Part shown: in pieces, positions 22,012 through 41,659 of the stretch
How the letters are laid out: every line of letters starts with the position of its first letter
Numbering within the stretch: position 1 is the stretch's first letter
DNA from: Neocallimastix lanati (nom. inval.)
Lineage: Eukaryota > Neocallimastigomycota > Neocallimastigomycetes > Neocallimastigales > Neocallimastigaceae
Assembly (NCBI GenBank): GCA_016946835.1
Contig: JACVTC010000015.1
Coordinates: 1,236,501 to 1,300,500, forward strand
Reading direction: 5' to 3'
DNA length: 64,000 bases
Position numbers and translations under genes: made by a program
Notes under the pieces: generated by a model
Told to the model about the DNA's origin: nothing
The model's database searches: none
What the model saw: the letters and a program-made list of their open reading frames with translations, nothing else

Positions 22012-22021
22012 CTTGAGTCTT

Positions 22022-22034
22022 AGCGGGGGCATCT
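22022..22034 (+). other. Element 1 polypurine tract
   Basis: AGCGGGGGCATCT directly before the 3' LTR; primer for plus-strand DNA synthesis. Element 3 has the near-identical GTGGGGGCATCT. Confidence 0.75.
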
Positions 22035-22524
22035 TAATACAGAATGAACAAATAATACTAATTGTGCTAGAATAATATAAATTATTCTAACCTTATAGAT
22101 TATTCTATTCTATATAATTGGAACTTTCCAATATTATTCAAATATTACTAAATAGAAATCTTAAGTTAATAAATCACTAATTAACTTATAATTCCTTTTT
22201 GAATTATCGATCCGATTCCATTATAATGTATTAAAAATCTTTAGCCAAGAATATTGTCCTTGCCCACTTAATATATTAATATTATATTTCTTTTGTATTA
22301 TGTTATATTGAAAATAATCAAATCTATTTAATTAGTTATTAAAATTTTCGTTATCAATTTAAATTTATTTTTAATTACTAAATTTAACTAAACCACAATA
22401 AAATATTCTGTATAATCTCTTTATTTTTATTTTATATATATTAGTATTAAACTATTATTAAATAATTAATAATTCAATAATATATAACTACTATTTATAA
22501 CAATAATATTATTAACTAAAATAA
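22035..22524 (+). repeat. Element 1 3' LTR, truncated
   Basis: Matches the first 490 bp of the 5' LTR with about one substitution (CCAAGAATATT against CCAAGAGTATT), then stops and joins the second tRNA-bearing segment. Confidence 0.92.
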
Positions 22525-22854
22525 AAATTTTTTATATTTTATTTTGAATATATGTGATGTATCCAAAATAAATAATATTAAATAAATTTTAAAAAAAAAA
22601 AAAAAAAATATTTAAAAATAATACTTTAAAAAATTTGTTATTTTATGGGGGGCATATTTTCTTTAGTCATGATTTTATTTTTATTTTATTTATATATATA
22701 TATATATTTTTATGCAAAGTTTTTTTTTTAATAATTAGACTAGGTAATAAACTTTTTTTTTTTCAATAAATACCAAAAAAAAAAAAAAAGAGTATAAAAA
22801 ATAAAATAATATAAAAATAAAATAAAATATAAATTATGAAATTAGAAATAATAA

Positions 22855-22872
22855 AAATAAAAAAAAAATAAA
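22855..22872 (-). terminator. Pol III oligo-T terminator, copy 2
   Basis: Same T-run terminator as copy 1, directly 3' of tRNA-Cys on the minus strand. Confidence 0.72.
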
Positions 22873-22943
22873 GGGGCGTTCCGGATTTGAACCGAAGACC
22901 TATTGATCTGCAGTCAATTGCTCTACCGCTGAGCTAACACCCC
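22873..22943 (-). tRNA. tRNA-Cys (GCA), copy 2
   Basis: Identical in sequence to the copy at 15794-15864: anticodon GCA, full cloverleaf, 13 bp downstream of tRNA-Ser. Confidence 0.95.
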
Positions 22944-22956
22944 AATCATTGAAGTT

Positions 22957-23038
22957 CGTCAGCTGCAGAGTTTGAACCTGCGCGGGCAGAGCCCACCAGA
23001 TTTCAAGTCTGACTCCTTAACCACTCGGACAAACTGAC
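22957..23038 (-). tRNA. tRNA-Ser (UGA), copy 2
   Basis: Same gene as 15878-15959 with two substitutions. One turns the anticodon-stem G-U of copy 1 into G-C. The other turns a T-stem G-C into G-U. Both keep pairing, so both copies look functional. Its upstream flank is the insertion point of elements 2, 3 and 4. Confidence 0.94.
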
Positions 23039-23050
23039 TGCTTCACTTTT

Positions 23051-23055
23051 TTGAT
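23051..23055. other. Target-site duplication of element 2 (left)
   Basis: TTGAT here and TTGAT at 30153-30157 flank element 2. A 5-bp duplication is typical of Ty3 integrase. The right copy is T plus the first four bases of element 3's LTR. Confidence 0.82.
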
Positions 23056-24054
23056 TGTAATAATTTAATTAAAAAATTATAATTAAATTATTAATCATTA
23101 ATATTAGCTCTAACTGCTAATATTAAAGGTTTAGAAAAGAATCATACTTACCTATGGTTCTTTCTAATTATCGAGTTTATTATAACGAATTATAATAGAC
23201 GAAACACTAAAATTGATAAGGAAAAGTTTTAATTATAAAATTTGTTTTATTAAAATAATTTGTTTTATTATTTATTAAAAATTTTAAATGTTAAAACTTA
23301 TTGTTATTATTATTATATTATAATTGTTATAATAATAACTCTTGATTTCTCAAAGAGAACTCAAGAGCCTTATTTATACTTTTTTGTCAAAATAAGGTTA
23401 AAATCAAAAGGGGTTCTAATCTTAACAAATCTCTTATCTAGGAAAAGACTAGAAGAAAAACCTAGATAAGTTTTTTGATCGATATTCTATCCATATCGAT
23501 CATCGCGTTAATTAAGTAAAACCGATTACTTTTAAGAAGTAATTGGAAAAACCTTAATTAACCGATTACTTAATCTAATATAATGATCGAAAATAAAAGA
23601 ATAAAATAATGAAAATTATTTCGATCATAAAATTTAAAATTTAATCTATTTAGTTCTATTTTATAGAACTTTACATAAAAAATATAAAACAATACATTAA
23701 TAATAAAATACATGATTAATACAATACAGAATACATGTTAGAATACAGAATACATGATAAAATACAGAATAGTGTTTTAGTTTATGATTTAATGAGTGAG
23801 AGAAAACTAAAACTAATAAATTTAATAATTAAGTGAATAATTAAATAAATTTAATATTATTTTAAATGTATAAAAATTATTTAATTAAATAAATTTTTAA
23901 TATTAAACTAAATAAAATTTTAATATATAATTAAATAAATTATTAATTATAATTAATTGTATAAATGAAATATGAGTTAAATAAAAGTTATATTAATTAT
24001 AACCTAACTAAGAAAATATAATTATTTTGTTAAAAATAATTATAGATTCTTACA
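23056..24054 (-). repeat. Element 2 LTR (3' LTR of the minus-strand element)
   Basis: 999 bp, TGTAATAATT..GATTCTTACA. It is nearly identical to 29173-30152 but carries one extra 19-bp unit containing AGAATACATGTT. Short open frames inside it are not genes. Confidence 0.93.
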
Positions 24055-24066
24055 TTGCTCCCTTTA
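24055..24066 (-). other. Element 2 polypurine tract
   Basis: On the minus strand TAAAGGGAGCAA ends at the LTR; the TAA is also the stop codon of gag-pol, so the coding region runs up to the priming site. Confidence 0.72.
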
Positions 24067-27000
24067 TGGTGATGGTTCCTTTAATCCTATGTCTCTTTCA
24101 GTATAAGGCTCCAACTGCGAGATATGAAATACCGGGTGTAAATGAAGATTTTCTGGTAATTCAAGCCGGTAGTTCATTCTTTCCCTCACTTCTATGACCT
24201 TAAAGGGTCCAAGATACTGGTTAGAAAGCTTTTTTGCAGGTTCATTGGAGAAGTAATACCTTTTCAACCAAACCATGTCGTTAACATGGAAAGTAGGACC
24301 AGAAGCTTTCCTAGAGTCACCAAACTTTTTGAAATCTTCTTTAGCTTTGATAAGGTGCTTTTTAAGGGCATCAAAATGGGCAGACCAATCCCTAGTAAGT
24401 ACAGAGGCATTATCTTTTAAAAGAACAGGAGGAGAGTCAATATTGCATACTGGATTAAAACCATAATTTGCACAGAAAGGCGACATGTTTATAGATTTGT
24501 GAAATGAGTTGTTATAAGCCATTTCACAAAGAGGTAGATAAAAACACCATTCATTTTGGGCAGTAGAACAGTAGCATCGTAAATATTGTTCGATTACGGA
24601 ATTAGCCCTTTCGACTTGACCATTTGTTTGTTGGTGATGAGCAGTAGCGAGTCTTGGCTTAGTATTTAGAGCTGAGCAGAGTGAGGTCCAAAATTCAGAA
24701 GAGAACTGGGAGCCATGATCAGAGACAATGATTTTAGGGAATCCATGATACCGAAAAACGTTGTAAAGGAGCATCTTGGCGGTCAGGTCAGCGGAAGGGA
24801 CGTCGGAGCAAGGAACTAAATGGATCATCTTTGTTAAATGATCCGAAACCACCATAATACATGTGCAATCTTGTGAACTAGGTAACGAAACTATAAAATC
24901 AACCCCAATAATTTCCCATGGTTTATTGGGAACAGGCAACGGTTGAATTTTTCCGTAGGGTTTATGTCTACGAATTTTACACCTAGCACAAGTTGAACAA
25001 GAAAGTACATAATTATGAATATCTTTCTTCATATTAGGCCACCAGTAGTATCTCTTGATTTTATCAAGAGTTTTGTCAATACCTTGGTGTCCGTTGGTGG
25101 GTGAGTCATGAAAAGATTTCAAAATTCTTGCTCTTAAAGTGGATGGGACGATGATTCTGTTTTGGAAATGTAAGACCCCTTCATTTAAAGAAAATAAAGA
25201 ACTTTTAACTGTGTTTGACTTAGTTTTAATCTTTTCTAAAATAGATTTGCAATATGTGTCAGCCGTTTGGGCATCAATCAAACTACTAATATTATCAGTG
25301 TTTGCACAACATAAGGCATTATCATCCAATAATGGACGGTCTTTGTTGTGGAGGGAAACCACGGAATTATAATCCGGACGTCTCGACGACGAATCTGGTT
25401 CACTACTCCTTGATCCACAAAATTTGTCAGTCGGTTGGGTATCAATCAAGCTACTGATAATAGTGTTTGCACAACAAAAGGCATTATCATCCAATAAAGG
25501 ACGGTCTTTGTTGTGGAGGGAAACCACGGATTTATAATCCGGACGTCTCGACAACGAATCTGGTTTACCACACCTTGATCCAGGTCTGAACGAAATCCTA
25601 AAGTCAAACTTAGAAAGAAAGAGGCTCCATCTTATCTGGCGTTGGTTTAAATGTTGAGGCTTTTTAAAATATAATAAATTCCTGTGATCGGTAATGATTT
25701 GAACAGGAAACTTAGCCCCTTCAAGGTGGTGACGCCAGGTTTCAAAAGCGGTGATAATAGCGAGTAGTTCCTTGTCATATATTGTATAATTTAATTCAGA
25801 AGATGACAAAGACCTAGAATGAAAAGCGACAGGGTGAAGTTCGTTATCCTTGTCACTGATTTGAGAAAGAATGCAACCCACAGCAAAATCACTGGCATCA
25901 GTTTCAACAGTGAATTCCTTATCTGGATCGGGGTAGATAAGGATTTCGTCTGTGGTAAAAGCAAGTTTTAATTTTTTGAAGGCATTCTCAGCATCATCAT
26001 TCCATTTGAACTCGTTATTCTTCTTGAGGAGTATTCTTAAGGGTTCCATAATTATGGCGAAATTCTTTATGAATTTCCTATAGTAGTTACAGAGTCCGAG
26101 GAAACTTTGAAGTTCATTCATGTTTTTTGGAGTAGGCCATTCAAGAATTGATTTTACTTTGTTTTTATCCATAGAAAGGCCATTTATTGATACAACAAAC
26201 CCTAAAAAAGTAGTTTCAGGAACGTGAAATTCACATTTTTCTAGTTTTACATAGAGACCATTTTTGACTAACAAGGAAAGGACATGATGAACATGTTTAA
26301 TATGTTCAGTAAGGTTTTTCGAATATATTATAATGTCATCTAAGTAGACAAAGAGAAACAAGCCAATATCATCAGAAAAAATGTCTTGGATAAAGCGTTG
26401 AAAAACCGAAGGTGCATTACGTAAACCAAAAGGCATTACACGGTATTCAAAATGACCAAAAGGAGTACGAAAAGCAGTAAGGTATTCATGGCCTTTCTTG
26501 ACACGAGCTAAGTTATAGGCAGATCTTAAGTCAAGCCGAGAGAAAATAATAGCACCTTTAAATGATTCTATCAAATCAGATATCCTAGGAATTGGATAGC
26601 TATTTCTGATAGTAATTGAATTAGGTTTTCGGTAGTCAACGCAGAGTCTGAGAGAGCAGTCATGTTTTTTAACAAATAGCACTGGAGCACCAGTAGGAGA
26701 TTTTTTAATTATTTCTTCATTTTTGTCAGAATCCTTCATTTTACTATCTTGAATTAAAACAGCACAGATATCCATATCGCTTAATTCGTCTTCAGATATG
26801 GAATCAGGAATTATAGAATCAAGAGAAGTTTCTCTCTTATGTTCAGATTCAGTACTGGGTAAGAGAGAAGCAGTAATATCTGATGAATGGAAAACAAACT
26901 TATTACCCTTAGCGGAAGGACAATGACTAAAACAGTGAGATTCCAAGAAATAGATTTTATTATTCTTATAGTCAATATAAGGAGAATGAAGATTTAACCA

Positions 27001-28065
27001 ATCTCTTCCAAGGATTGCTGAAATGTCCTGAAGTTGGAGATTTGCGATAAAGAATTCAAACATTTCAGTATGGTCCATAAAAGTAAGCTTAAGACGTTTT
27101 GTAACTTGTTTTATAGCCATATTCTTTTCATTAGGAAGTTTTACGTTGATCGTATTTGAGAGGTTTGAATAAGGAATTTTGTTTGCTGTTACGAAGCTTT
27201 TGCAGAGATAACTTCTAGCAGAGCCCGAGTCAATAAGGATTCTGGTTTTAATCTTTTTGTTATTAACGGTTAACAAGAAAGTTGTAGTCATTTTATTATT
27301 ATGACTTGGGGTGTAATTTGCTGATAAAATACTTCCATTGTCTCGTCCCTTATGGTGCTTATTGCGTTTAAATTTGTTTTCGGTCATGTTAGTTTCGTTT
27401 CTTTTTCGTTTGAAAGATTTACTACTCTTTGGCTTGTAGTCATTGGTCTTTACTTTTTGCTTAAGTAAGCATTTTCTATCAATATTGATAATAGAATTTG
27501 TTGCCTCAAATAAACTTTTAGGTTTGTCTAATTTATTGAACTCTGTTTTAACATCCTCAAGAAGACCTCTTTTGATTAGGTCAATGAATACATCGTCCGG
27601 CCATCCAATACGTCCAGCTAACCTTCGAAATTCAATAGTATATAATGCGGCTCTTCCTAAATGAAGTTGTTTTAAGTTTAGAAGTTGTTCAATAAGAACA
27701 TCCTTCTGTTCTTTAGTATCCCCAAAATTGCTTATCAAAATATCTTTAAAGGTGTCATAGCTTAACAAATTTAAAGTCCCATCAGCCTTCAATGAAAGTC
27801 CCCATTTCTTTGGAGGTCCATGTAACATGCTGATAACATAAGAAATTTCTAAGTCGTCCGTGGAAAAAGAGTTGGGATGTTTTTTAAAAAACAATTCACT
27901 CTGTTCCAGGAGCTCATTAACGTTAAGTTTGTTGTTATCAGCTAAGTCCTTGGATAACACTCCGTTGGCGGAAAAGAAGGTAGGAATAAATTCTGTTAAA
28001 GCTGTTATAAGCTTTGAGGATTCAACTTCACTTGGAATTTGGGCGTTATTACTATTGGATTCCAT
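24064..28065 (-). CDS. Element 2 gag-pol polyprotein (single frame, RT N-terminus missing)
   Basis: 1333 residues. Gag capsid region about 1-210 (for example DTFKDILISNFG and LYTIEFRRLAGRIGW), then a basic stretch without a CCHC knuckle. Protease ILIDSGSARS near 277, RT with LCVDYRKPN and VYLDD (near 573), RNase H VETDASDFAVG, integrase zinc region (HQGIDKT..CSTCARC). The DDE core is near 1073, 1115 and 1150 (DHLTK, SDHGSQF, NGQVERAN) with exact D-35-E spacing, and a GPF module follows (YLGPFKVI). Two oddities are visible. The sequence between protease and RT lacks the usual fingers region and starts at IIKKSPTGAPVLF, which suggests an in-frame deletion. A 55-codon segment between RNase H and integrase is tandemly duplicated (about 25300-25566). 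The frame is open but the RT may not work. Confidence 0.92.
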   Translation of the reverse strand: MESNSNNAQIPSEVESSKLITALTEFIPTFFSANGVLSKDLADNNKLNVNELLEQSELFFKKHPNSFSTDDLEISYVISMLHGPPKKWGLSLKADGTLNLLSYDTFKDILISNFGDTKEQKDVLIEQLLNLKQLHLGRAALYTIEFRRLAGRIGWPDDVFIDLIKRGLLEDVKTEFNKLDKPKSLFEATNSIINIDRKCLLKQKVKTNDYKPKSSKSFKRKRNETNMTENKFKRNKHHKGRDNGSILSANYTPSHNNKMTTTFLLTVNNKKIKTRILIDSGSARSYLCKSFVTANKIPYSNLSNTINVKLPNEKNMAIKQVTKRLKLTFMDHTEMFEFFIANLQLQDISAILGRDWLNLHSPYIDYKNNKIYFLESHCFSHCPSAKGNKFVFHSSDITASLLPSTESEHKRETSLDSIIPDSISEDELSDMDICAVLIQDSKMKDSDKNEEIIKKSPTGAPVLFVKKHDCSLRLCVDYRKPNSITIRNSYPIPRISDLIESFKGAIIFSRLDLRSAYNLARVKKGHEYLTAFRTPFGHFEYRVMPFGLRNAPSVFQRFIQDIFSDDIGLFLFVYLDDIIIYSKNLTEHIKHVHHVLSLLVKNGLYVKLEKCEFHVPETTFLGFVVSINGLSMDKNKVKSILEWPTPKNMNELQSFLGLCNYYRKFIKNFAIIMEPLRILLKKNNEFKWNDDAENAFKKLKLAFTTDEILIYPDPDKEFTVETDASDFAVGCILSQISDKDNELHPVAFHSRSLSSSELNYTIYDKELLAIITAFETWRHHLEGAKFPVQIITDHRNLLYFKKPQHLNQRQIRWSLFLSKFDFRISFRPGSRCGKPDSLSRRPDYKSVVSLHNKDRPLLDDNAFCCANTIISSLIDTQPTDKFCGSRSSEPDSSSRRPDYNSVVSLHNKDRPLLDDNALCCANTDNISSLIDAQTADTYCKSILEKIKTKSNTVKSSLFSLNEGVLHFQNRIIVPSTLRARILKSFHDSPTNGHQGIDKTLDKIKRYYWWPNMKKDIHNYVLSCSTCARCKIRRHKPYGKIQPLPVPNKPWEIIGVDFIVSLPSSQDCTCIMVVSDHLTKMIHLVPCSDVPSADLTAKMLLYNVFRYHGFPKIIVSDHGSQFSSEFWTSLCSALNTKPRLATAHHQQTNGQVERANSVIEQYLRCYCSTAQNEWCFYLPLCEMAYNNSFHKSINMSPFCANYGFNPVCNIDSPPVLLKDNASVLTRDWSAHFDALKKHLIKAKEDFKKFGDSRKASGPTFHVNDMVWLKRYYFSNEPAKKLSNQYLGPFKVIEVRERMNYRLELPENLHLHPVFHISQLEPYTERDIGLKEPSP

Positions 28066-28559
28066 TTTTACCTAAATTATAAATTATATTAACTATGAAA
28101 TATATATATATGTTTATTATGATTATAAGGTCATAGTTAGGAAGTTTTGGCGAAAGAAAACAGTTGAATAAGAAAATACTCAAGCATTTCCAGACGATTT
28201 TCCAGAAGCACGTTAGCAGTAAACAGTAGTATGTACTTAATGACGGGAGCAGCTTGCCTATTACTGGTGTCATGTTCCCGCGTACACCACGATTGCAACC
28301 TACCACACATCGGATAGGCCAGTCCAGAGCTGCCCAGATCGCTGCCTGTGACAGATAAACTTAATCCGGAAACTGTTACCTAGATGCTAACGCACTTCTG
28401 CTTCTAAGGTCTGTACTAAGTCTTGGTTCTTCTATATTGTTTCCTTGGCCTACTTCTTCCAGTTCTATTTCCCTAAAAATCATGTAAACATATGTTAGTG
28501 TATTTATGTGTTCTTATTATTGTTATTATTTATTTTATTATTGCTCTTTATTGTTGTTT

Positions 28560-28601
<42 letters not shown>

Positions 28602-29172
28602 TATTTATCATTTATCATTTATCATTTATCATTTATTATTTACTATCATTATTTATTATTATTTATTATTATTTATTATTATTTATTATTATTTATTATT
28701 ATTTATTATTATTTATTATTATTTATTATTATTTATTATTATTTATTATTATTTATTATTATTTATTATTATTTATTATTATTTATTACTATATATCTAT
28801 TCTTTTAATTTTTTATGATTTTAATTATTTATCCAACTAATTATTACTATTTACTTATTTTTTAATATTTAATTTATGGTTTATATTAATTTATTCTTAT
28901 AATTTCTATACTAAATTATTAATTAATGATTTTTGATCTGATTTACTAATATTATCTACTTATATTTTAATATTTAATTTATTTACTATATATTAATTTA
29001 TTTTTTTAATTTCTAGATTATTCTATATAATTTATATTATTTTATTTATTATTAATCATAAAAATTTTTATTGTACTACACTAAATTATTTTGTACTACT
29101 TGATTCTAGAAATTAATTATATTATTAAATTAATTAACTATTCTATTAAACTATACTAAGAAGAGTTATTAT
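28066..29172 (-). other. Element 2 leader
   Basis: Roughly 1.1 kb between the 5' LTR and gag-pol. The part near 28140-28460 is less AT-rich than the rest (for example GGTGTACGCGGGAACATGAC on the minus strand), which suggests structured RNA. The rest is A/T simple sequence. I see no TGG-type primer-binding site at the LTR edge (the minus strand reads ATAATAACTCTTCTTAG there), so the priming mechanism is unclear. Confidence 0.6.
28561..28795. repeat. Poly(T) followed by 10-bp (ATTTATTATT)n array
   Basis: About 39 T, then imperfect TTTATCA units, then about 15 near-perfect 10-bp units. Long frames here, rich in Tyr, Ile and Leu, are artefacts of the repeat. Confidence 0.92.
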
Positions 29173-30152
29173 TGTAATAATTTAATTAAAAAATTATAAT
29201 TAAATTATTAATCATTAATATTAGCTCTAACTGCTAATATTAAAGGTTTAGAAAAGAATCATACTTACCTATGGTTCTTTCTAATTATCGAGTTTATTAT
29301 AACGAATTATAATAGACGAAACACTAAAATTGATAAGGAAAAGTTTTAATTATAAAATTTGTTTTATTAAAATAATTTGTTTTATTATTTATTAAAAATT
29401 TTAAATGTTAAAACTTATTGTTATTATTATTATATTATAATTGTTATAATAATAACTCTTGATTTCTCAAAGAGAACTCAAGAGCCTTATTTATACTTTT
29501 TTGTCAAAATAAGGTTAAAATCAAAAGAGGTTCTAATCTTAACAAATCTCTTATCTAGGAAAAGACTAGAAGAAAAACCTAGATAAGTTTTTTGATCGAT
29601 ATTCTATCCATATCGATCATCGCGTTAATTAAGTAAAACCGATTACTTTTAAGAAGTAATTGGAAAAACCTTAATTAACCGATTACTTAATCTAATATAA
29701 TGATCGAAAATAAAAGAATAAAATAATGAAAATTATTTCGATCATAAAATTTAAAATTTAATCTATTTAGTTCTATTTTATAGAACTTTACATAAAAAAT
29801 ATAAAACAATACATTAATAATAAAATACATGATTAATACAATACAGAATACATGATAAAATACAGAATAGTGTTTTAGTTTATGATTTAATGAGTGAGAG
29901 AAAACTAAAACTAATAAATTTAATAATTAAGTGAATAATTAAATAAATTTAATATTATTTTAAATGTATAAAAATTATTTAATTAAATAAATTTTTAATA
30001 TTAAACTAAATAAAATTTTAATATATAATTAAATAAATTATTAATTATAATTAATTGTATAAATGAAATATGAGTTAAATAAAAGTTATATTAATTATAA
30101 CTTAACTAAGAAAATATAATTATTTTGTTAAAAATAATTATAGATTCTTACA
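29173..30152 (-). repeat. Element 2 LTR (5' LTR of the minus-strand element)
   Basis: 980 bp, partner of 23056-24054, lacking one 19-bp unit. Confidence 0.93.
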
Positions 30153-30153
30153 T

Positions 30154-31180
30154 TGATAAAGAATGCCCAAATAATGTTCTTTTGGTTATTCATCTTAAAT
30201 GATTTATTTAACCCTTAAATAAATTATTTGATTCTTTATTCTTTTGGAACTTTCTATATTCTAATAAATTCATCTATATTCCTAATTAGTACAAATTAAA
30301 TTATACTATTTAAAAAAGTGTATTTAATATTAATTCCTTATCTATACTACTTTTATTATTCTTATCTATATTTTATTATTATTAAAATCCTTATCAATAT
30401 TATATAGTTTATTTTATCAATTTTCTTAATAGTTTATCAAAATCTTATCAATAATTCTTTTATTAATATTAAACTTATCAATATTAATTATTTCTTTGGA
30501 AAATTCCAGATTAAAAATTGTATTAATGATTACTAATAAAAAAAAAAAAAAAAAAATTAAACATAAAAGAAAATAGTTATATTATTATTATATGTTTTAT
30601 TATAAATATTATATTATAAATTTGATGAAATGATTATAAATTTTATATTAACAATTTAAATAATATTATTTTTCTAAACTTAGTAAAATTAAACTTTAGG
30701 ATTAAATAAATATTACTAAACCACAGAATTAATTTCTGTAAAATAAAAAAATTGTCTTTTAAAATATATAATTAAGTAGATTAGTAATAAATAATTAGTA
30801 ATAGATTAATATATAAGCATTATTTATTATAAGTAAATAATAATTATATTAACAATAAAAAAAAAAAAAAAATAATATAAAAATTATTAATAATAATTAA
30901 TTTTTATTATACAAAGAAATGGCTTTACCATTTCTATTATTTTAAGAAAAAAATATAAATAACAGTAAAAAAATTGTATTTTTTTTTATATTGTAATTCT
31001 AACATTATAATTTTTAAATAAAAAAAATTTAATAAAAGAATTATAAAAATCAAATTTTAAAAAGTTATATTGTTTATTTATTTTTTTTGTTTATATTAAT
31101 CTTTTATTTTTATTTTTATTATTGTTTTAATTTTATTTATAATTTTTGAATAATTTTTATAAAAACCCCGAACCAAACCA
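30154..31180 (+). repeat. Element 3 5' LTR
   Basis: 1027 bp, TGATAAAGAATGCCCAAATA to CCCCGAACCAAACCA. TG..CA ends. Confidence 0.92.
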
Positions 31181-31187
31181 TAAAATT

Positions 31188-31204
31188 TGGTGGAGATATC
31201 GGGG
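31188..31204 (+). other. Element 3 tRNA primer-binding site
   Basis: TGGTGGAGATATCGGGG, identical to element 1 and 7 bp from the LTR end. Confidence 0.7.
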
Positions 31205-32033
31205 AAAGTTAGGATAAAATTTAAATAGAATTAAAATAATAGCTTTCTTATAAAACTTTTTTTTTTTATTTATTAAAATTATAGGAAGTGATAGATAATT
31301 TTTTTTTATCGGTGAAACTTCCTTTATATATTATTAGAATTTTTATAACCTGTCTTTCTTGCTTATTGGATTTAGTACGATTTAGAAGCGTACTTAGTCA
31401 AATCGCAAGAATTAGGAAGTTTTCAGGTTAGTTATCCTCAAGGGTAGGTTGTAGTGACAACTATTCTTGGGTTCTGGCCGTTCTGTTGGTTTGACAGCAG
31501 AAGCGCCCGGTGTAAGTGCTACATGAAGCCGTAATAGGCGAGCTGGGCTAACTTACATACTACTTCCTATGTTTTGGTATAAGTACGGAAAATTTCCGGA
31601 AATGCCGTTAAGCAGAAAGATAAAATAAAATTTTTAATAATATTAGTAAATTTGTATATTTTTAAATTTGTTATACTTTTTTTTTTATAATAAAACAAAC
31701 AAACAAACAAAAAAAAAAAAAAAAAAATTTTTTTTTAATATTCCTTAAGTTATATTTAAAATTTGTTTTAATTTAATATTAATAATTGAAATATACTTTT
31801 CTTATCAAGATTGAATTAAACAAGTTATATCAGCATAAACAAGCCTTACTAGCTGTCAAGAGGGGGATAGTAGGGGTAATATTAAGATCCTGAAGCGTGT
31901 GACGGAACATAGATCACGTGAATAGGGTGACGGAATGAATATTATCGGACGAAAGACCCATAAGTTAGTAGTTTATTATATATAACTTGGTCGGTAGTTC
32001 AACTTGATAATAACAATATTAAATTAATTTCTA

Positions 32034-32064
<31 letters not shown>

Positions 32065-32373
32065 TAAGCTTCTAAATAAATATAATTCAAATAATAAGTT
32101 CTGTTGAGTGGGTCGAAAAGGAATTCGAGCTCAACTGTTTAACGAAATAAATATTCATATCTAAGTGGGTCGAAGAAGAATTCGAACTTAGTTTAAAATT
32201 TCTTTCTAAAATCTTCTAGGTGGGTCGAAGAGGAATTCGAGCCTAGGATAAAATTTTATTTTTATTATTATTAATTCCATACTGAAGTAATCAACTTGTT
32301 ACCTTATCAAAACCCAATATTATATTATCCTATTTTACTATATTATTCAAATCTCAACAAGACAAACCATAGA
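31205..32373 (+). other. Element 3 long structured leader
   Basis: About 1170 nt before gag, far longer than in element 1. Two islands stand out as less AT-rich: about 31350-31620 (for example CGCCCGGTGTAAGTGCTACA) and about 31840-31990. The first holds the inverted repeat CGATTT/AAATCG near 31369-31405. The three hairpins follow. Likely roles are RNA dimerisation, packaging or translation control, by analogy with retroviral leaders. Confidence 0.55.
32103..32246 (+). promoter_or_regulatory. Three tandem covarying hairpins in element 3 leader
   Basis: Hairpin 1: outer stem GTTGAG (32103-32108) / CTCAAC (32130-32135). Hairpin 2: CTAAG (32161-32165) / CTTAG (32187-32191). Hairpin 3: CTAGG (32216-32220) / CCTAG (32242-32246). 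All share the core TGGGTCGAARARGAATTCGA, whose TCGAA pairs with TTCGA. The outer stems differ but always pair, which is compensatory change and strong evidence for RNA structure. Spacing is 58 and 55 bp. The last hairpin ends 127 nt before the gag ATG. Confidence 0.85.
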
Positions 32374-33243
32374 ATGGCTCTAGATTTCAAGGAATTGAAG
32401 AAGGAACTCAAAGGAATTGAAGTTCTTTCTAAAGAAAATTTAGATATCCAGACTTGGTACTCTGATATACAACTATGGGCTGAGTTACAAGATGTAACGG
32501 ATCCAAAGAAAATTTTTATTGCATGTGTCCTGACTTCCAAAGGTGAACCAAGAAAAATTATTCAGCAACTAGAAAATAAGGACCAGGAAGAAGATGAAGA
32601 ATCTGAAGATGATGATGAGGACTCAGAAAATGAAGATCCAGTAACTGGGTATCCCTCATTACCTCAAATAGTTGAAGCTCTGGAAACTTTTTATGGTGTG
32701 AAGGAAGATCAAAACCAACTCCTCAGAGAACTTCGCGCTTTAAAAATTGGAAGATTTGAAAAAGTCAAAAACTTCAATAAAAGGTACAGGTCACTATATC
32801 TAAAGTTAAATAAACAGAAAAAGAAACAGGTGAGCGTATTAGACTATGCGGAATCATTACAAAATAATAAAGAAGCCTGGAAAAGAGTATCATTGAAAGA
32901 CGAGATCTCTTTAGAAAAAGCCTTTACTGTTGCTGAAAAAGTAGATCGCTTGAGTTTAATCAGAGGAAATGACAACGGAAACTCTAGTATTCAACAAAAT
33001 CCATCGAATAATAATCATAATAATCACTCAAATCAAAGTTTTAGAAGAAAACCAGTAGTAGAACAAAAACCTATTGATAAGGGAATTGAGAGGGATGAGT
33101 TAGTATACAAAATGAGGAATCTCACTATTAAAACTTGCTATTTCTGTGGAGAGAAAGGACATTACCAACAACAATGTCCTAAACTTAGAGCAATAATCGA
33201 AGATAACAAAAATAAACTTTTTAGTAAAAATTTAAATCATTAA
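32374..33243 (+). CDS. Element 3 gag
   Basis: 289 residues starting MALDFKELKKELKGIEVL. It aligns with element 1 gag throughout: capsid-like helical region, acidic stretch (EEDEESEDDDEDSENED) and a C-terminal CCHC knuckle CYFCGEKGHYQQQC. The frame is open further upstream, but the first ATG is at 32374 and matches the start of similarity. It ends TTA AAT CAT TAA within the frameshift signal. Confidence 0.92.
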   Translation: MALDFKELKKELKGIEVLSKENLDIQTWYSDIQLWAELQDVTDPKKIFIACVLTSKGEPRKIIQQLENKDQEEDEESEDDDEDSENEDPVTGYPSLPQIVEALETFYGVKEDQNQLLRELRALKIGRFEKVKNFNKRYRSLYLKLNKQKKKQVSVLDYAESLQNNKEAWKRVSLKDEISLEKAFTVAEKVDRLSLIRGNDNGNSSIQQNPSNNNHNNHSNQSFRRKPVVEQKPIDKGIERDELVYKMRNLTIKTCYFCGEKGHYQQQCPKLRAIIEDNKNKLFSKNLNH

Positions 33244-33263
33244 TAGGGAGAAGAAGCACTCCC
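33231..33263 (+). promoter_or_regulatory. Element 3 -1 ribosomal frameshift signal
   Basis: Slippery T TTA AAT (33231-33237), 8-nt spacer CATTAATA containing the gag stop, then stem GGGAG (33246-33250) / CTCCC (33259-33263) with loop AAGAAGCA. Same geometry as elements 1 and 4. Confidence 0.86.
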
Positions 33264-36200
33264 GTCGTCAATAAAATAGCTTCTGTCAATTATCAGTCTT
33301 CTAATGAAATTAATGGAAACGAAATTGAAGAAGTCGAGGAAGATATAGAACTTCGTTCTTCTGATTTTGATGAGGAATACAATATTCTTTGTGCCATGAA
33401 AAGGAAATTAGATCAACTCAGTAAAAAGGTTGAGGCTAATGCAGAAAAGAGAAGGTACAAAACACTAAAAGACCAACCTCGTTCAATTTCCACTCCTGCT
33501 CTTAGAAAAAGAAGAGAACTAGAAATGACTGATAAGAATATGGACACTCTACCTCCTCCAACCCAACTTCATCCTTCTATTATCGCTCAACCAAGTATCA
33601 ATAAAGAAAAAAAAATTGAAAAGGAATTGAGAGATAGAGAAAGAGAGGAAGAAGCTAAAAGAATGGATTACCATCCTACAACTATAATTGAAGAAGATAT
33701 TCAATCAAAAGAGAAAAAGAAGGATAAGACCAAACAGGAATCTAGTACGACAGCGACGATTGAGAAAATTTCTAACTTACAAAAATCTGAAAAACTAAAT
33801 AACACAAGAAGAAGCAAGATGTATAGAAATATCCAATTAGTATCCAATGTAGAAGATTATGACGTTGCTACTGATCTTAACTCTACTAAATGTAATATTA
33901 CCTTTGGTCAATTGTTCAATGTTGCGCCAAAAATACGAGCTCAAGTAACGCAAGGTCTTAGGCTAGAAAAAGACTCGTCAAAAATTACTGGTGCCATCGA
34001 TAATGTCTATGCTTCTGCGGTATTAGTAAATAATATTGATCATTCCTATATTAGTAAATGTAAAGAAGTGCAAGAAGATGATATTGCCATGGTAGATGCC
34101 TCAGTAGATGGTGTTCCTGGTAAACTGCTTATTGACTCATGCAGTAATCTTAGTATAATTACTAAAAGGTACTTGGATAAGTTACCAAATCAATATGAGC
34201 CCATAGGAATTAGTCGTGGAAAAATTCGTTTAGCTACTCAAAATGATGAGTATTCAGAAGGAATAATAATTAGAGTCCCTGTCACAATTGGAAATCTTAC
34301 GTTTGATGTCGACTTTAGAATAATAGATAAGGAAGAACCATTCTATGATATGCTTATCAACCTAAAAACACAAGTTGATAATAAACTTTTTATTCATCCT
34401 ATTAGATATTGCCTTTGTCAAGTTAAACCAGATGGTTTAGTTGATAATATTGCCTCAATAAATAATCAACCTTTAGAAGAAGACAAATTGTTATGTATGC
34501 TCAAGAAAGTTCCTGAAGAAGGAGACTTAAAGAATAATTTAAAGAAAATCGAAGGATTACCTCCTAAGGAATATATTCATCATCCAAATTTTAAAGCTTC
34601 CTTAAATGAAAAATATCGAGATACAATTATTGCACTACTTGAAAATTTCATTGTAGTAGTAGCAACTTCCACAGAAGAACTTACACCTTCAAAACTTAAA
34701 CCCCACAAAATTAAACTTAAAGCCAATGCCAAACCATTTAAACAACGATACTACAGGTTATCAAAATTTAAGTCAGACATACTTAAGAACGAGATAATTA
34801 AATTAATCCACAAACAATTGATCGAACCTTCTTGTTCAGAATGGTCATCCCCAATTGTCTTGGTACCAAAACCAAACGGAAAATGGCGTTTATGTATAGA
34901 TTATAGAGGAGTAAATGATCGAACTGAAAAAGATGCTTACCCAATTCCCAATATTGATGAAATTTTTGATTGTTTAAATGGAGCTGTTGTATTTACAACA
35001 ATGGACCTTTATTCTGGATATCACCAAATTAAAATGGAAGAAGATAGCATAGAAATGACCACTTTTACTACTAGATTCGGAAATTACCAATTTAAAGTCA
35101 TGCCATTTGGATTAACTGGTGCTCCAGCTACCTTCCAACGAGAAATGAATCGTATTTTATTTCCTCTGGTAATTGTGTTTTCAACTTTATTGATGATATC
35201 CTCATTTTCTCCAAAAGTATTGAAGAACACATTGAACACATTAAACAAGTATTAGAAATCTTCAAGGAAAATGACCTAAAAATTAACATTGAAAAGTGCC
35301 ACTTTATGCAAACCGAAGTAGATGTCCTTGGCCATAGAGTTACCACTGAAGGACTAAAACCAATTGATAGTAAGGTGGAAGCTATTAAGAATTGGAAAGC
35401 TCCTTCTGACGTTCATGAACTTCGCTCATTCTTAGGATCAGTGGGATATTATCGAGATTTCATTCCGAACTATGCTCAAATAACTGCTCCTATCTGTAAG
35501 TTGCTTAGAAAGGGAGTTACGTATGAATGGAACGAACAACATCAGGAAAGATTTAATCTACTTAAGGAAAAATTGATTAATGCACCAATTCTTAAGTATC
35601 CAGATTTTGAGAAAGAGTTTATCATTCGAACAGATGCTTCGTATGAAGGAATTGGTGGAGTACTACTACAAAAGGATGAAAATGATGTAGAACATCCAGT
35701 ACACTTTGTAAGTCGAAGTCTTACTAAAGCTGAAAAGAATTATGGTATAACAGACTTAGAAGGAACAGCATTATATTATTGCATCACCAAGCTTAAACCA
35801 TATATCATGGGAAGTCCGTTTATAACTATCGTCTACACTGATCACAAACCCCTACTTGGACTATTTAAAAATAAGGAACCCAACAATGCTCGACAAACTA
35901 GATGGTGCCTCACGGCTAGTATGTTAAAAGTTGACATTCGTTACGAACAAGGGAAAAAGAATGTGGTTGCTGATGCCTTATCTAGAATGAAGAATCTTGA
36001 AGAAAAGAAAGTATTAGCAACCAAAATTAGTAATAATGAAGAAAACGATCTGCTATCCAAAGTTATTAAAGAATTCATTAACGAAAAGTTTACAAAAATA
36101 GATGGAGTAGAATACTTCATTGATGGAAACAATTATAGGAAATTAGTCACAGAAACTGACGAAAAGTTAAAACTTATATTCGAAGCTCATAAAATCGGCC

Positions 36201-37207
36201 ACGATGGTTATTACAAAACATACCAACGCTTGAGGAAAAGTTACTACTGGAATGATATGGTGAATGACATTAAAAGAGTCATATCCAAATGTGCCAAATG
36301 TCAATTGAATCGACTGCAACCGTACCCAGAACCCACGGAAAATATTCCAACTCAAGTGGAAGGTCCATTTACACATCTTGGTCTAGATATTATAGGTCCG
36401 CTAAAACCAACAAGTAACAATAACCAATATATTTTAGTAGTAGTAGATTACTTTACTAAGTGGGTAGAAGCCGAGCCTACTGAAAGTATTACTTCTAAAG
36501 ATGTAGTAAAATTCTTAATTAAAGTTTTCGCTCGTCATGGAGTTCCCCAAGTTATTACTACTGACAATGGGGTACAATTTACTTCCGATATGACCAAGGT
36601 ATTTCTCGATTTGTACGATGTTTATGTTAAGTTTGTTTCTACTTATCATCCTGAAAGCAATGGATTGACGGAAAATAGGAACAAAGAAATAGGCAAGCTA
36701 TTACGACTTCTAGGAACCGAAAATAGAGATTGGGACGAAGTATTACCGTCGGCTCTTTGGGCTCTTAGAACAGTTAAAAATTCTACAACTAATCATTCAA
36801 GTTTCGAATTAGTGTATGGCCGAGAAGATCAGCAACCCTTTAATATCGCAGCTAGACCGACTAAGGGAATTAATAAATCATCTGATGAAATCTTACTGGA
36901 AAAGTTTATCAATCATTATCGCTGGACTATGGAAGCTTGTGAAAATATCAAGAATGCCAATAAATATTGGGCTGCCAGACGAGAAGAAAAACAGAGCTGG
37001 AATAAAGTTAAAGAAATTAAAGCCGGAGATCTTGTGCTTGTTAGAAACTTTAGTAGAACTAAGTTGGAACCCTACTTTGTTGGACCATTAAAGGTAATTA
37101 AAAGGCAATTCAATACTGTTACTCTTGCAGACGTCAAGACCGGAATTCAAATGAACAGAAATGTTCATGTAAAGAATATAGTAAAGTATAACTCAGCTCT
37201 GGTATAG
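33237..37207 (+). pseudogene. Element 3 pol, disrupted in RT
   Basis: The -1 frame from the slippery site runs to a stop at 35255; the rest of pol continues in another frame to 37207. Compared with element 1, four bases are missing near 35166-35168 just before the FIDD catalytic motif, which causes the break. Otherwise all domains are recognisable: protease LLIDSCSN, RT LCIDYRGVN, RNase H IRTDASYEG, integrase zinc region (HKIGHDG..CAKCQ), DDE core (LDIIGP, TTDNGVQF, HPESNGLTEN) and a GPL version of the GPY/F module. Since the LTRs are nearly identical, the break is recent or a sequencing error. Confidence 0.9.
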
Positions 37208-37217
37208 CTTGAGTCTT

Positions 37218-37230
37218 TGTGGGGGCATCT
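37218..37230 (+). other. Element 3 polypurine tract
   Basis: TGTGGGGGCATCT directly before the 3' LTR. Confidence 0.75.
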
Positions 37231-38255
37231 TGATAAAGAATGCCCAAATAATGTTCTTTTGGTTATTCATCTTAAATGATTTATTTAACCCTTAAATAAA
37301 TTATTTGATTCTTTATTCTTTTGGAACTTTCTATATTCTAATAAATTCATCTATATTCCTAATTAGTACAAATTAAATTATACTATTTAAAAAAGTGTAT
37401 TTAATATTAATTCCTTATCTATACTACTTTTATTATTCTTATCTATATTTTATTATTATTAAAATCCTTATCAATATTATATAGTTTATTTTATCAATTT
37501 TCTTAATAGTTTATCAAAATCTTATCAATAATTCTTTTATTAATATTAAACTTATCAATATTAATTATTTCTTTGGAAAATTCCAGATTAAAAATTGTAT
37601 TAATGATTACTAATAAAAAAAAAAAAAAAAAATTAAACATAAAAGAAAATAGTTATATTATTATTATATGTTTTATTATAAATATTATATTATAAATTTG
37701 ATGAAATGATTATAAATTTTATATTAACAATTTAAATAATATTATTTTTCTAAACTTAGTAAAATTAAACTTTAGGATTAAATAAATATTACTAAAACAC
37801 AGAATTAATTTCTGTAAAATAAAAAAATTGTCTTTTAAAATATATAATTAAGTAGATTAGTAATAAATAATTAGTAATAGATTAATATATAAGCATTATT
37901 TATTATAAGTAAATAATAATTATATTAACAATAAAAAAAAAAAAAAATAATATAAAAATTATTAATAATAATTAATTTTTATTATACAAAGAAATGGCTT
38001 TACCATTTCTATTATTTTAAGAAAAAAATATAAATAACAGTAAAAAAATTGTATTTTTTTTTATATTGTAATTCTAACATTATAATTTTTAAATAAAAAA
38101 AAAATTAATAAAAGAATTATAAAAATCAAATTTTAAAAAGTTATATTGTTTATTTATTTTTTTGTTTATATTAATCTTTTATTTTTATTTTTATTATTGT
38201 TTTAATTTTATTTATAATTTTTGAATAATTTTTATAAAAACCCCGAACCAAACCA
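37231..38255 (+). repeat. Element 3 3' LTR
   Basis: 1025 bp, near-identical to 30154-31180; visible differences are A-run and T-run lengths and one substitution (ACTAAAACACAG against ACTAAACCACAG). Confidence 0.92.
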
Positions 38256-38259
38256 TTTT

Positions 38260-38840
38260 TGATACAATACAGCTAGAAATACGCAAGAAAATTAACAAAA
38301 GAGAAAATCCTATAATAATATAGTGAAAAATAATTACAATATATAATATACTAAATCATTATATAAATAGATTAAAAATTAATTAGACAGCCAATAATAT
38401 TCAAGATAAAATTAATTAATAAATTTAAAAGAAGAGAATGGAGAGTTTTTCTTGTTGTTTTAAAAATTCTAATTGAGTAAAATAATAGTTTTAGAGAACT
38501 TATAGTTTAGTTTAAATAATTAAGTAATTACTTATAGTTAAAGGATAAGAGTTGAATCCTACAATTATAAGTAAAATTATTATTAAGATATTAATATAAA
38601 TTGAATTATTAGAGATAGATAAAAATCATTATATTCAGAGGAATATAAATATAATTGTAATAATTATGTAAAATAAATAAATAAATAAAAACAAGATTCA
38701 AAAAGAAATAAATAAATTTTATTATTTGTGTAAATTATTATTTATTATCTTTGAGTTGGAATATATTATTTTACAAATTCCCTATTTGCTCGACCTCGTT
38801 ATAAATAGAAATCTGATACTTTATTACTTATATTGTATCA
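38260..38840 (+). repeat. Element 4 5' LTR
   Basis: 581 bp with perfect 9-bp terminal inverted repeats TGATACAAT and ATTGTATCA. No second copy is in the window, so the boundary rests on the inverted ends and the adjacent primer-binding site. Confidence 0.8.
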
Positions 38841-38869: not shown

Positions 38870-39195
38870 AAAATAAAATAATATGAAAACAATGAAAAGA
38901 AAATAATAATAATTAAATAATAGTTTGAATAATATTGATTTAATTTCTTTCTAATAAAACAAGCCTTTCAAAAAAAAAAAAAAAAAAATTTAGATTCTTT
39001 TTTTTATTTTATTTTATCTTATTTTATTTTTCTTTATTTTCTTTTTTTAAAATTTTTTTTACAAATAAAATACTTTATTAATCATATTATATAATATATC
39101 AATAATATAAAAATTTAATTACAAATATTCTACCTATTCTTAATTCTACATTTAACAATTTACATTAACATTAATTATAAAAAAAAAAAAAAAAA

Positions 39196-40341
39196 ATGAT
39201 TGATGCCGAAAAGTTACAAAGGGTTCTACCTCGCTTGAACGATTATGACAAAGACGTTGATACTTGGATTAACGACTTAGCTAAAACCCTAGAATTATAT
39301 GACATCGTCGAACCAAGAAAGATCTTCATTTGGGTATTAGAAGCCACAGATGAAGATGTACATGGAGATTTGAATTCTCTTAAAGTGAAAAAGGGAAATG
39401 AAGTGAAATATCCTTCCCTCAAGCAAATTCAATCGTGCATCGAAGAATACTTAAACATCACTGAAAATGATAAATGTTCTATTCTAAAGGATTTAAAAAT
39501 TAGTAACAATGAAACAATAAAAAAATTTAATTATAGACATAAAAGATTATATCACAGGCTAAGCAGAGACCGTCAACAATTTGTCTCCGTAAAAGACTAC
39601 ATAAATGCAATAAAAACTCGAATGTATCCTTGCTCAAGAGTATTGGAGGCTGAATGTGAAACATTAAGCGAAGCTTACAAGGTAGCTGAGGTTGCAGAAG
39701 AAACAGAGAGAGAGATGAATACAGTTTCATTCAATGAAAATAATTATCATAGTAATAATTTGATGATAGCTCAGAATAACAGAGGTTTATCGATTATGAA
39801 TCACCCATTCTATCAAGGATTTTTAGTAGGACAATCCCGTCGTCGTGGAATCCAGAGATATTTTAATCCTAATTATAATAATTATAACACTTATGGATAT
39901 AAAGATAATAATAATAATAGTCAATATTATAATAACTATAATAATTATTATAATAATAAAAACCTCAATGGAAATACTTATAATAATGTAAATGGAATTA
40001 ATAATAATACTAATTCAAAATATAACAGTCAAAATTTTAATAACTATAGAAACTATATGGAAAATAATAATCAATCTTACGGTAATAACAAACGAAATAT
40101 TGCGGCCTTTACCCCTGGAAATAATCTCATGTCGATCACTAACTTAAATGGTGATAACAAAAATAATAATCAAATTAAGGAGGTTAATACTTCCAATTTT
40201 GGTAATAATTTAAATAAACGACTTATCTGTTTCCGTTGCTCACAACCGGGACACAAATTTACGGATTGCCCCTATTCCTTTAAACAACTTGCAGAAATGG
40301 AAGAAAAAGCATCAAGTAGTACTAGCCATTTAAACCAATAA
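39196..40341 (+). CDS. Element 4 gag
   Basis: 381 residues. An N-terminal capsid-like region (LPRLNDYDKDVDTWINDLAK, KCSILKDLKISNNETIKKF) is distantly similar to element 1 and 3 gag. A long Asn/Tyr-rich low-complexity segment (about 215-340) follows, then a CCHC knuckle CFRCSQPGHKFTDC. The ATG follows an A run; start chosen as the first ATG. It ends in CAT TTA AAC CAA TAA within the frameshift signal. The frame is intact although pol is cut. Confidence 0.88.
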   Translation: MIDAEKLQRVLPRLNDYDKDVDTWINDLAKTLELYDIVEPRKIFIWVLEATDEDVHGDLNSLKVKKGNEVKYPSLKQIQSCIEEYLNITENDKCSILKDLKISNNETIKKFNYRHKRLYHRLSRDRQQFVSVKDYINAIKTRMYPCSRVLEAECETLSEAYKVAEVAEETEREMNTVSFNENNYHSNNLMIAQNNRGLSIMNHPFYQGFLVGQSRRRGIQRYFNPNYNNYNTYGYKDNNNNSQYYNNYNNYYNNKNLNGNTYNNVNGINNNTNSKYNSQNFNNYRNYMENNNQSYGNNKRNIAAFTPGNNLMSITNLNGDNKNNNQIKEVNTSNFGNNLNKRLICFRCSQPGHKFTDCPYSFKQLAEMEEKASSSTSHLNQ

Positions 40342-40361
40342 TTGGGAGAAGGATGACTCCC
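40329..40361 (+). promoter_or_regulatory. Element 4 -1 ribosomal frameshift signal
   Basis: Slippery T TTA AAC (40329-40335), 8-nt spacer CAATAATT with the gag stop, then stem GGGAG (40344-40348) / CTCCC (40357-40361) and loop AAGGATGA. Confidence 0.86.
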
Positions 40362-41139
40362 AGTAAACAAACCAACCAAGTAGAAAATAACCCAAAGACA
40401 CTTCCAATAATTAACAACTCACCTGAAGTCATTGCTACCGCCATCAAGAATACCAAAACAAAAAGTAAGAGTCTTACACCATCTAGAAGAGAAATATTAA
40501 AGAACAATCCAATTCCTATACAAACAACAGCAATGAATCATAATAATCATTTAGTGAGTTCAAATAATAAAAATAAACAATTAACTAATACTAATAAACA
40601 TAACAATAAATTAAATAAATTAAAAAGTAATACTATATCAGACAAGGGCGAAGAAGATGTCTTAATGTCTGAAATAAGCAATCAAGATTTTAATAAAAAT
40701 ACTAATGAGAGTAATAATACTTCAATATATAATGAGAATGATAACAATGAAATTCAAGAAGGTAATAACCAAATTGAGAATAATGATGACTTACCTATTA
40801 ATGAGACAGAAAAATTAAACTACCTAGATCCTTCCTTTATTACCGAAAAGAATATCAGGAGCGTGAAGAAATCTAATAAATTAAAAAGAGCACAAGAAAT
40901 TTTAGATAGTCCCACACAAGGTGATAATAAAATGAATAATAAAGAAGAAAATAAAGAAAGGCACATAAAATTAGTAGAAGAATTTGACGAATATCTGATA
41001 GAAGATTTAGTTAAAGAAATAGCTTCTACTGAAATTAATACTAAATTAGTACACTTACTTGATTTATTTCCGAAGTTTAGGGCAGCCTTTTCGAAAGCTT
41101 TAAAATTAAATCCTAGAAATTCTACAAGCACTCTATTAT
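40335..41139 (+). pseudogene. Element 4 pol fragment
   Basis: The -1 frame from the slippery site is open to the insertion of element 5's LTR. Only the N-terminal spacer is left: Lys/Asn-rich low complexity, then LLDLFPKFRAAFSKALKLN, which matches LLDVAPKIRSQVSQGLKLE of element 1 just upstream of the protease. No protease, RT or integrase remains. Confidence 0.82.
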
Positions 41140-41659
41140 TGTAACGATTTACACCCAATAAGTCTACACTAATAAGTAATTCGTTTTCTTAAAAAATTTG
41201 TTTTATTAATATTTTTTATTAAAATATAAAATTTATTATTATTTTTTTATTATTAATTAGTTATTGTAATATTTCGAATTACTTTTAACTAGTTAATAAA
41301 AGCACAAAGAAAAATTATTTTTTATTGAGAAATTCACGCTTATTTATACTTTTTCGGAAAAACAGTTTCGGAAAAAGTTAAGATTAACGAAAGTTCGAAA
41401 AATTAAGTTTTCTTTCTAGAAAATGAATCTTATAGAAAAATGATAAAATAATTATTAAAATAGAACTTTCTAGTTTCATTTAGTTATATAATATTAACCA
41501 AAGAAACTCTAGAACTTTCTACAATAATTTAATTAATTAACTAAAAATAATTTAGATTGGGAAAGGGTGTGAGTCGAACCTAAGAAGTTCGGCTTCATTG
41601 TCATGGTGTATTACCACCAGACTACAACAACAATTTTACTAACTCTACGATTCGTTACA
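41140..41659 (-). repeat. Element 5 LTR
   Basis: 520 bp with terminal inverted repeats TGTAACGA / TCGTTACA. It directly interrupts element 4 pol. It contains a tRNA-like segment described separately. Confidence 0.75.
41560..41631 (-). other. tRNA-like relic inside element 5 LTR
   Basis: On the minus strand TAGTCTGGTGG (41624-41614) resembles a Pol III box A and GGTTCGACTCA (41580-41570) a box B, with tRNA-like spacing of 44 bp. The acceptor and anticodon stems do not pair, so this is not called as a tRNA gene. It may be a tRNA-derived sequence captured by the LTR. Confidence 0.4.

Follow-up and report, generated by a model that had tools for sequence, protein, structure and literature searches.

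The retrotransposon stack at tRNA-Ser copy 2

The 64,000-nucleotide stretch of Neocallimastix lanati DNA analyzed here (the window; C57:1236501-1300500 of a searched assembly of 199 Mb and 762 contigs) has a low G+C content and carries, beside a tRNA-Ser(UGA) gene, a stack of three retrotransposons bounded by long terminal repeats (LTRs), which is the subject of this study. The gene at the base of the stack, tRNA-Ser copy 2, is an RNA polymerase III (Pol III) gene located by ARAGORN on the minus strand at 22957-23038, and is paired with a tRNA-Cys gene on the same strand (22872-22943, ARAGORN) that lies 13 bp downstream of it. A run of T at 23047-23052, 9-14 bp upstream of the tRNA-Ser 5' end, contains the shared insertion point. 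The youngest layer, element 2, occupies 23056-30152 on the minus strand, and the second layer, element 3, occupies 30154-38255 on the plus strand, both delimited by LTR comparison and Pfam matches. The oldest layer, element 4, is represented on the plus strand by its 5' LTR (38260-38840, recognized from the sequence and a family survey) and by a gag-like frame with a partial pol (39181-41144, composed of 39181-40341 and 40326-41144); neither its 3' LTR nor the remainder of its pol was found in the window.

Element 2 is bounded by a perfect 5-bp duplication, TTGAT, both copies of which are present at 23051-23055 and 30153-30157. The right copy is composed of a T and TGAT, the first four bases of the element 3 LTR, exactly as a preliminary description of this DNA had claimed. 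Joining the flanks of element 2 gave ...CACTTTTT|TGATAAAG, in which the LTR start of element 3, also written as TGATAAAGAATG, is placed 13 bp from tRNA-Ser. When the flanks of element 3 were joined, the result was ...CACTTTTT|TGATACAATACAG, which is the LTR start of element 4 at 38260. Once the inner layers are removed, elements 3 and 4 hence begin at the identical base, 13 bp from the mature tRNA-Ser end, and the same spot had been proposed for both in that description. The agreement of the nested duplications with the joined flanks indicates that the three-layer stack is real. It spans two lineages and both orientations, as had also been noted earlier: element 2 belongs to lineage B and lies on the minus strand, and elements 3 and 4 belong, together with an element 1 described below, to lineage A and lie on the plus strand. 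One detail was revised. Element 3 had been assigned TTTTT flanks, which are compatible with the sequence, since the T-run makes 4 bp and 5 bp indistinguishable at the window locus. Because the left and right flanks match over 4 bp in 13 of the 16 other copies of the element 3 family (for example TTAA, TTAT, TGAA, AAGC, ATTG, TTTA, and ACTG; two of the 13 pairs are copies of one locus), while none matches over 5 bp and three disagree, a 4-bp TTTT is probably the better reading, with its left copy at 23048-23051 and its right copy at 38256-38259, directly before element 4. With this duplication, elements 3 and 4 would have used one and the same cut.

Elements 1, 2, and 3 exhibited the Ty3/gypsy order of reverse transcriptase (RT), RNase H, and integrase in Pfam searches, and the pol of element 4 is cut short in the window. 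Element 2 contains a 1335-codon Gag-Pol frame (24064-28071, minus strand), to which RVP_2, RVT_1, RNase H, integrase, and SH3_Tf2-1 domains were assigned by Pfam. Element 3 has a gag-like frame at 32275-33243 and a pol split over two overlapping frames (33228-35255 and 35096-37207), so that the copy seems either to be damaged at this point or to rely on a frameshift. The TG...CA ends of the LTRs and the target-site duplication are complete for elements 2 and 3, and the LTR of element 1 begins TAATACAG, departing from TG. The best solved relative of the element 1 and element 2 pols was the Ty3 Gag-Pol structure 7q5b. Identity between the element 1 and element 3 pols is 54-76%, and element 2 is about 40% identical to both in RT; the gag-like frame of element 4 is distantly related to those of elements 1 and 3 (24-29%). 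Among the best 120 of 3348 database matches to the element 1 pol, the 23 best relatives showed 74-100% identity, and the best-ranked named relative is labeled Orpsp1, which we take to be Orpinomyces. Reading the order of the layers from LTR divergence was tried and abandoned: the LTRs of element 2 (23056-24054 and 29173-30152) have 2 mismatches in 980 aligned bases and those of element 3 (30154-31180 and 37231-38255) have 2 in 1024, so no order is readable.

A further tRNA-Ser(UGA) gene, copy 1, was located by ARAGORN on the minus strand at 15878-15959, and element 1 (15976-22529, plus strand; sequence and Pfam) has its edge 16 bp upstream of it. The tRNA-Cys/tRNA-Ser pairs at 15793-15959 and 22872-23038 are on the minus strand throughout, and the units containing them (15428-15976 and 22506-23055) are tandem copies of 98.5% identity with element 1 between them. 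The 3' LTR of element 1 ends prematurely at 22529, at the start of the second tRNA unit, so the pair of tRNA-Ser copies appears to have arisen by tandem duplication, by unequal recombination between two occupied haplotypes, or by an assembly merge.

Element edges at Pol III genes and inside other LTRs

For the census across the assembly, the best 40 matches were scored per DNA query, and all counts below refer to this sample of best matches. The tRNA-Ser query had 97 candidates, of which the best 40 were scored; one of them (L086) ends at a contig end, leaving 39 flanks. An edge was accepted when an LTR edge starting with TG or TA was located 11-21 bp upstream and was confirmed by a second locus with a different flank. 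This test used shorter seeds, a scored alignment, and a complexity filter, an earlier version having given 24/39 for tRNA-Ser. A confirmed edge was obtained in 27 of the 39 tRNA-Ser(UGA) 5' flanks, in the script's output all at 13-18 bp upstream, of which at least two positions are off by eye (L002, scored as 13 but read as 17; L007, scored as 13 but read as 16), though both of these flanks bear an LTR start. An LTR-like start was seen by eye in 33/39. The control was the 3' side of tRNA-Arg, on which the identical test found no confirmed edge in 34 flanks; the 3' side of tRNA-Ser often holds tRNA-Cys. Fisher tests against this control gave p values of about 6e-11 for tRNA-Ser and 4e-4 for tRNA-Arg, in which array copies are non-independent and repeated flanks (two for Ser, several for Arg) are counted.

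The 34 tRNA-Arg loci were read out of 63 tRNA hits. A tRNA-Asn directly upstream leaves no room for insertion at 14 of them, so 20 loci have a free 5' side, among which an edge was detected at 7 by the strict test and occupation was seen by eye at 16, with L150 ambiguous. When tRNA-Ser and tRNA-Arg were combined, 31 distinct edges were obtained, of which 28 fall within 13-16 bp, two are 18 bp away, and the last is 21 bp away (row L168, which has tRNA-Asn upstream, was omitted). Element 4 also directly adjoins a tRNA-Cys and a tRNA-Ala, relatives of element 2 directly adjoin two tRNAs, and the 5' end of element 1 faces a tRNA gene in all four cases observed (L001, L078, L098, L174). The preliminary description had let its proposal of targeting to Pol III genes depend on a genome-wide enrichment of junctions within about 20 bp upstream of such genes. 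This enrichment is strong in the sampled loci (27/39 against 0/34) and, together with layered joints at many loci, supports the proposal. A row of 34 near-identical tRNA hits on one strand was also observed at C555:170732-399007, some of them about 0.5 kb apart, and the six that were read are tRNA-Arg(UCU).

Four 5S loci were read out of nine hits. At one of these four genes, on C293, an LTR edge lies 8 bp upstream (12136-12221 and 12230-12348). The flank of this gene is AACAAAAT followed by the LTR, and the other three genes share a near-identical flank, GACAAAAT, followed by different sequence; judged from these flanks, the loci look like one filled and three empty sites. AAAT precedes an LTR of the TGATACGGTATTT family both at this 5S gene (L243) and beside element 4 on C99 (L236, C99:220836-220976), so that the C99 stack may end at a 5S gene.

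In the junction survey, the class of each neighbor (LTR end, lineage) was assigned mostly by eye, except in the scripted tRNA edge test. For element 3, 30 of the best 40 matches were read at either end; removal of 6 internal LTRs and 3 flank repeats on the left gave 21 junctions, and removal of 8 internal cases, 1 ambiguous case (L043), and 3 repeats or near-repeats on the right gave 18. For element 4, 37 of the best 40 left ends were read, of which 10 were internal; an exact repeat (L120) and two near-repeats with short indels (L110, L115) were merged, and the window and L052 were added to give 26, including L132 without a neighbor class. Its right ends (20 of the best 40 read, minus 4 internal and 1 near-repeat) gave 15. 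Eight of the 47 distinct 5' junctions (21 of element 3 and 26 of element 4) border a tRNA or a tRNA-like module, comprising three of element 3 at modules (L011, L021, L033) and five of element 4 at tRNA-Cys (L106), tRNA-Ala (L131), and modules (L102, L105, L126). None of the 33 distinct 3' junctions (18 and 15) does so (Fisher p 0.018 against the 5' side). In 22 joints, the 3' neighbor is a lineage A LTR whose start is similar to the one at the 5' end of element 1, 3, or 4 or of tRNA-adjoining families. This contrast, the neighboring starts, and the element 1 cases together show that lineage A is strongly biased in its orientation, the 5' LTR end being turned toward the Pol III gene and the body away from it. 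Exceptions are L121, which is head to head with another LTR, L089/L124, in which one family occurs both ways, and L235, whose neighbor is reversed. For lineage B, either end was found on the gene side. The left ends of element 2, of which 23 of the best 40 were read and partly classified, included 2 at tRNAs, 2 internal, 2 at a TGTAACGAA start, and 3 ambiguous, and the remainder are LTR ends by eye.

The spacing between layers is also regular. Where lineage A adjoins lineage A, the next LTR starts exactly 4 bp on in 19 of the 22 joints, 3 bp on in two (L056, L222), and 6 bp on in L234; the element 4 right ends L223, L228, L231, L233, L235, and L237 are outside this set. When a lineage B-like end (...TTACA) lies between the gene and element 3 or 4, it is separated from the element by 3 bp in 9 of 13 cases, and by 4, 4, 6, and, in the window, 1 bp in the others. 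A gap of 3 bp means that the 5-bp duplication of lineage B reaches 2 bp into the lineage A LTR. In the reverse order, where element 3 is nearer the gene than a lineage B-like end, the gap is 6 bp (3/3). The landing point of lineage B is thus displaced outward by about 2 bp relative to lineage A. This offset, seen in both layer orders, is natural if both lineages measure from the Pol III gene, and the two Ty3/gypsy lineages seem to share one ruler.

Many stacks are located inside the LTRs of other retrotransposons, about 20 bp before a tRNA-like A/B-box module. The module of L011 occurs at 40 or more places, often paired about 6.2 kb apart, and the rest of its LTR is 99% identical to the element 2 LTR over 575 bases, so this module is part of an LTR. 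Reading 17 of 40 copies of this landing-pad LTR gave 8 that are intact and empty and 9 that are interrupted near one base. Lineage A starts occur in seven of the nine filled copies: five share one base, of which two (L209 and L211) match exactly over 256 bases and perhaps represent a single event, and two are displaced by one base toward the module. The remaining two filled copies contain lineage B-like ends. Element 3 (L011) sits at the base shared by the five, and element 4 (L126) is one base off. A second module LTR family (L021, L033) was found at 37 places, with pairs about 5.87 kb apart, and the LTR of L033 precedes a gag-like stretch resembling 42051-44372 of the window by eye. Such pairs, 5.9-6.2 kb apart, point to full-size elements. 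The modules are defined by A/B-box spacing and by being LTR parts: A- and B-box-like sequences are present at tRNA-like spacing, and in four modules the B box is 65-68 bp from the element edge, which is close to its expected distance in a tRNA gene of usual length. We infer that module LTRs are transcribed or bound by Pol III factors.

A 17-kb stack on C190 (L241, L242; C190:660850-677800) lies in one landing-pad LTR, both halves of which are visible. It reads TTAA, a lineage A element with three tandem LTRs, TTAA, an element 4 solo LTR, and TTAA, so that the same four bases mark both outer edges, proximal and distal, as well as the joint between the layers; this was the one stack besides that of the window that could be read edge to edge. 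The lineage A element of C190 has the form LTR-body-LTR-body-LTR, and its two units are 99.9% identical.

The motif TTTCGTTACA was considered as a sequence-specific target, as it recurs at the outer edges of L040, L044, and L231, and in reverse at L195 and, in a shorter form, L185. This was ruled out, since the motif reads as the first bases of a third LTR type (TGTAACGAA..., window 41659), which also carries a module, and stacks ending in TTTCGTTACA therefore probably lie inside LTRs. In the window, this start is the apparent 3' LTR start of a chromodomain element remnant (41565-41659, minus strand; sequence, Pfam), and it carries a tRNA-like A/B-box module of the sort that acts as a landing pad elsewhere. 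The remnant comprises a stretch at about 41150-41659 and a minus-strand frame at 42051-44372, in which gag is joined to an integrase tail and no RT match was found by Pfam. Elsewhere in the window, a minus-strand gene at 6774-9197 has Pfam matches to Sortilin-Vps10 and to two CBM_10 domains, which are linked to fungal dockerins, and related AT-rich tandem-repeat islands at 11325-11843 and 51042-53530 flank the retrotransposon cluster. The CBM_10 matches, the low G+C content, and the Orpsp1 label of the element 1 relative are consistent with an anaerobic gut fungus.

Probable Pol III-directed integration and its alternatives

We consider it highly probable that at least two Ty3/gypsy lineages undergo Pol III-directed integration at one point upstream of Pol III genes. 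Several observations weigh against this. Six of the 39 tRNA-Ser flanks look free by eye (L004-L006, L081, L093, L097), three tRNA-Arg copies of the C555 array are by eye free of an LTR edge, and the window's tRNA-Arg looks free as well. The distances given above run to the mature tRNA end, not to a mapped transcription start. Most copies of elements 3 and 4 adjoin, by eye, another LTR and not a Pol III gene directly (a tRNA or module borders only 8/47 distinct 5' junctions), and the modules gave no match to the Rfam tRNA model even at E 0.1 and were missed by ARAGORN too. No LTR edge is present at three of the four 5S genes read. U6 genes, which are Pol III genes in other fungi, were tried as a further target, and none of the four above the cut-off has an LTR start within 100 bp.

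The frequent contact with other LTRs, and the exact 4-bp step to the next lineage A start in 19/22 joints, could be explained if elements home on LTR ends or LTR-LTR joints, the tRNA association being a by-product of the first landing. We regard this explanation as unlikely, since different families hit separate landing-pad copies at the same base or one off, and the eight empty copies have no LTR end at that base. The 2-bp offset between lineages B and A in both layer orders is as expected from an outside landmark, and direct tRNA and 5S contacts exist.

Another explanation is selection without targeting, in which elements land widely and survive only upstream of tRNAs or inside other elements. 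Such spots are presumably harmless, and an effect of selection on orientation was not formally excluded for Tj1, a Ty3/gypsy element of Schizosaccharomyces japonicus (PMC4600332). Near base-level precision is, however, observed in LTR copies, where other positions should be equally harmless, and near-identical, presumably young copies occupy the same positions, which makes selection a very improbable cause. An assembly artefact, with layers joined from different loci or haplotypes, is scarcely credible, since even though the adjoining duplicated tRNA-Cys/tRNA-Ser unit with its cut-off element 1 is a typical haplotype-merge site, misjoins would not be expected to yield the perfect nested duplications of the window and of C190, and the same joints recur on many contigs.

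A mechanism for Pol III-directed integration can be proposed on the positions, duplications, orientation bias, and empty and filled sites, which were directly observed. The integration machinery would measure from the Pol III promoter complex, and not from local DNA sequence or from a resident LTR, with the tether most likely being TFIIIB, positioned by TFIIIC that is bound to the A and B boxes. An insertion would leave the Pol III gene and the last dozen or so bases unaltered, so that the same point would reopen for the next element. At such a reopened site, layers would pile outward with the oldest farthest, and every joint would show the short duplication again. The 4-bp duplications are made by lineage A (elements 1, 3, and 4 and many relatives), whose 5' LTR end is toward the gene in nearly all cases read, and lineage B (element 2 and relatives) makes 5-bp duplications in either orientation, about 2 bp farther out. 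The LTRs of some other families, with a tRNA-like A/B-box module near their start, serve as landing pads likewise. The orientation bias would follow if the lineage A integrase contacted TFIIIB in a single orientation.

Relation to known systems and significance

The same region upstream of Pol III genes is the target of Ty3, Tj1, DGLT-A, and several further yeast elements (PMC5911963, PMC4600332, PMC5006619). Ty3 of S. cerevisiae has the Ty3/gypsy gene order and inserts a few bp upstream of Pol III starts. Subunits of TFIIIB are the minimum that its targeting needs, and directionality depends on TFIIIC (PMC8632968). In N. lanati, in contrast, at least two lineages and many LTR families are stacked at one base, LTR-borne tRNA-like modules are used as targets, lineage A is strongly biased in orientation and produces 4-bp duplications, and the tether is one that we infer. 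Tj1 resembles the present elements in being inserted upstream of tRNA and near 5S genes in a fixed orientation, and its authors knew no other wild-type element with this property; it points toward the Pol III gene with a 5-bp duplication (PMC4600332), whereas lineage A points away from it with a 4-bp duplication. DGLT-A of Dictyostelium is a Ty3/gypsy element that inserts, in either orientation, about 15 bp ahead of the mature tRNA (PMC5006619, PMC5911963), whereas lineage A is biased. The word "nested" is absent from both papers, and no account of stacks at one base was seen there. LTRs with tRNA-like or 5S-like sequence, and hence a Pol III promoter in the LTR, are known from Helenus, Cassandra, and others, of which Helenus has the tRNA-like sequence, occurs in fungi among other hosts, and comprises short non-autonomous elements (PMC10886601). 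The module LTRs described here differ in being paired 5.9-6.2 kb apart and in serving as landing pads, and the word "targeting" is absent from that paper. Word searches of an open-access library that omits most subscription journals listed no such report for gut fungi, and those for nested insertions at tRNA genes brought up two reviews.

Pol III-directed integration was already known from yeasts and social amoebae, and it is now probably extended to an anaerobic gut fungus whose genome is large and rich in repeats, in which several families use the site at once, almost to the base. The stacks give the relative order of arrival without a clock, and the 8 empty and 9 filled copies of one landing-pad LTR constitute a natural target-site experiment. 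No gene insertion protocol was available for this group according to a 2018 abstract (PMC5796279), and the elements may be a lead for directed gene insertion in gut fungi. The LTR modules raise the testable idea that retrotransposons offer Pol III promoters or are exploited through them. We lean slightly toward a layered parasite system, in which some LTRs carry Pol III modules and other elements use the assembled Pol III factors as a platform, with the same ruler applied at tRNA and 5S genes. If this is true, retrotransposons would regularly parasitize retrotransposons at one base, leaving ordered and in principle datable records of invasion genome-wide.

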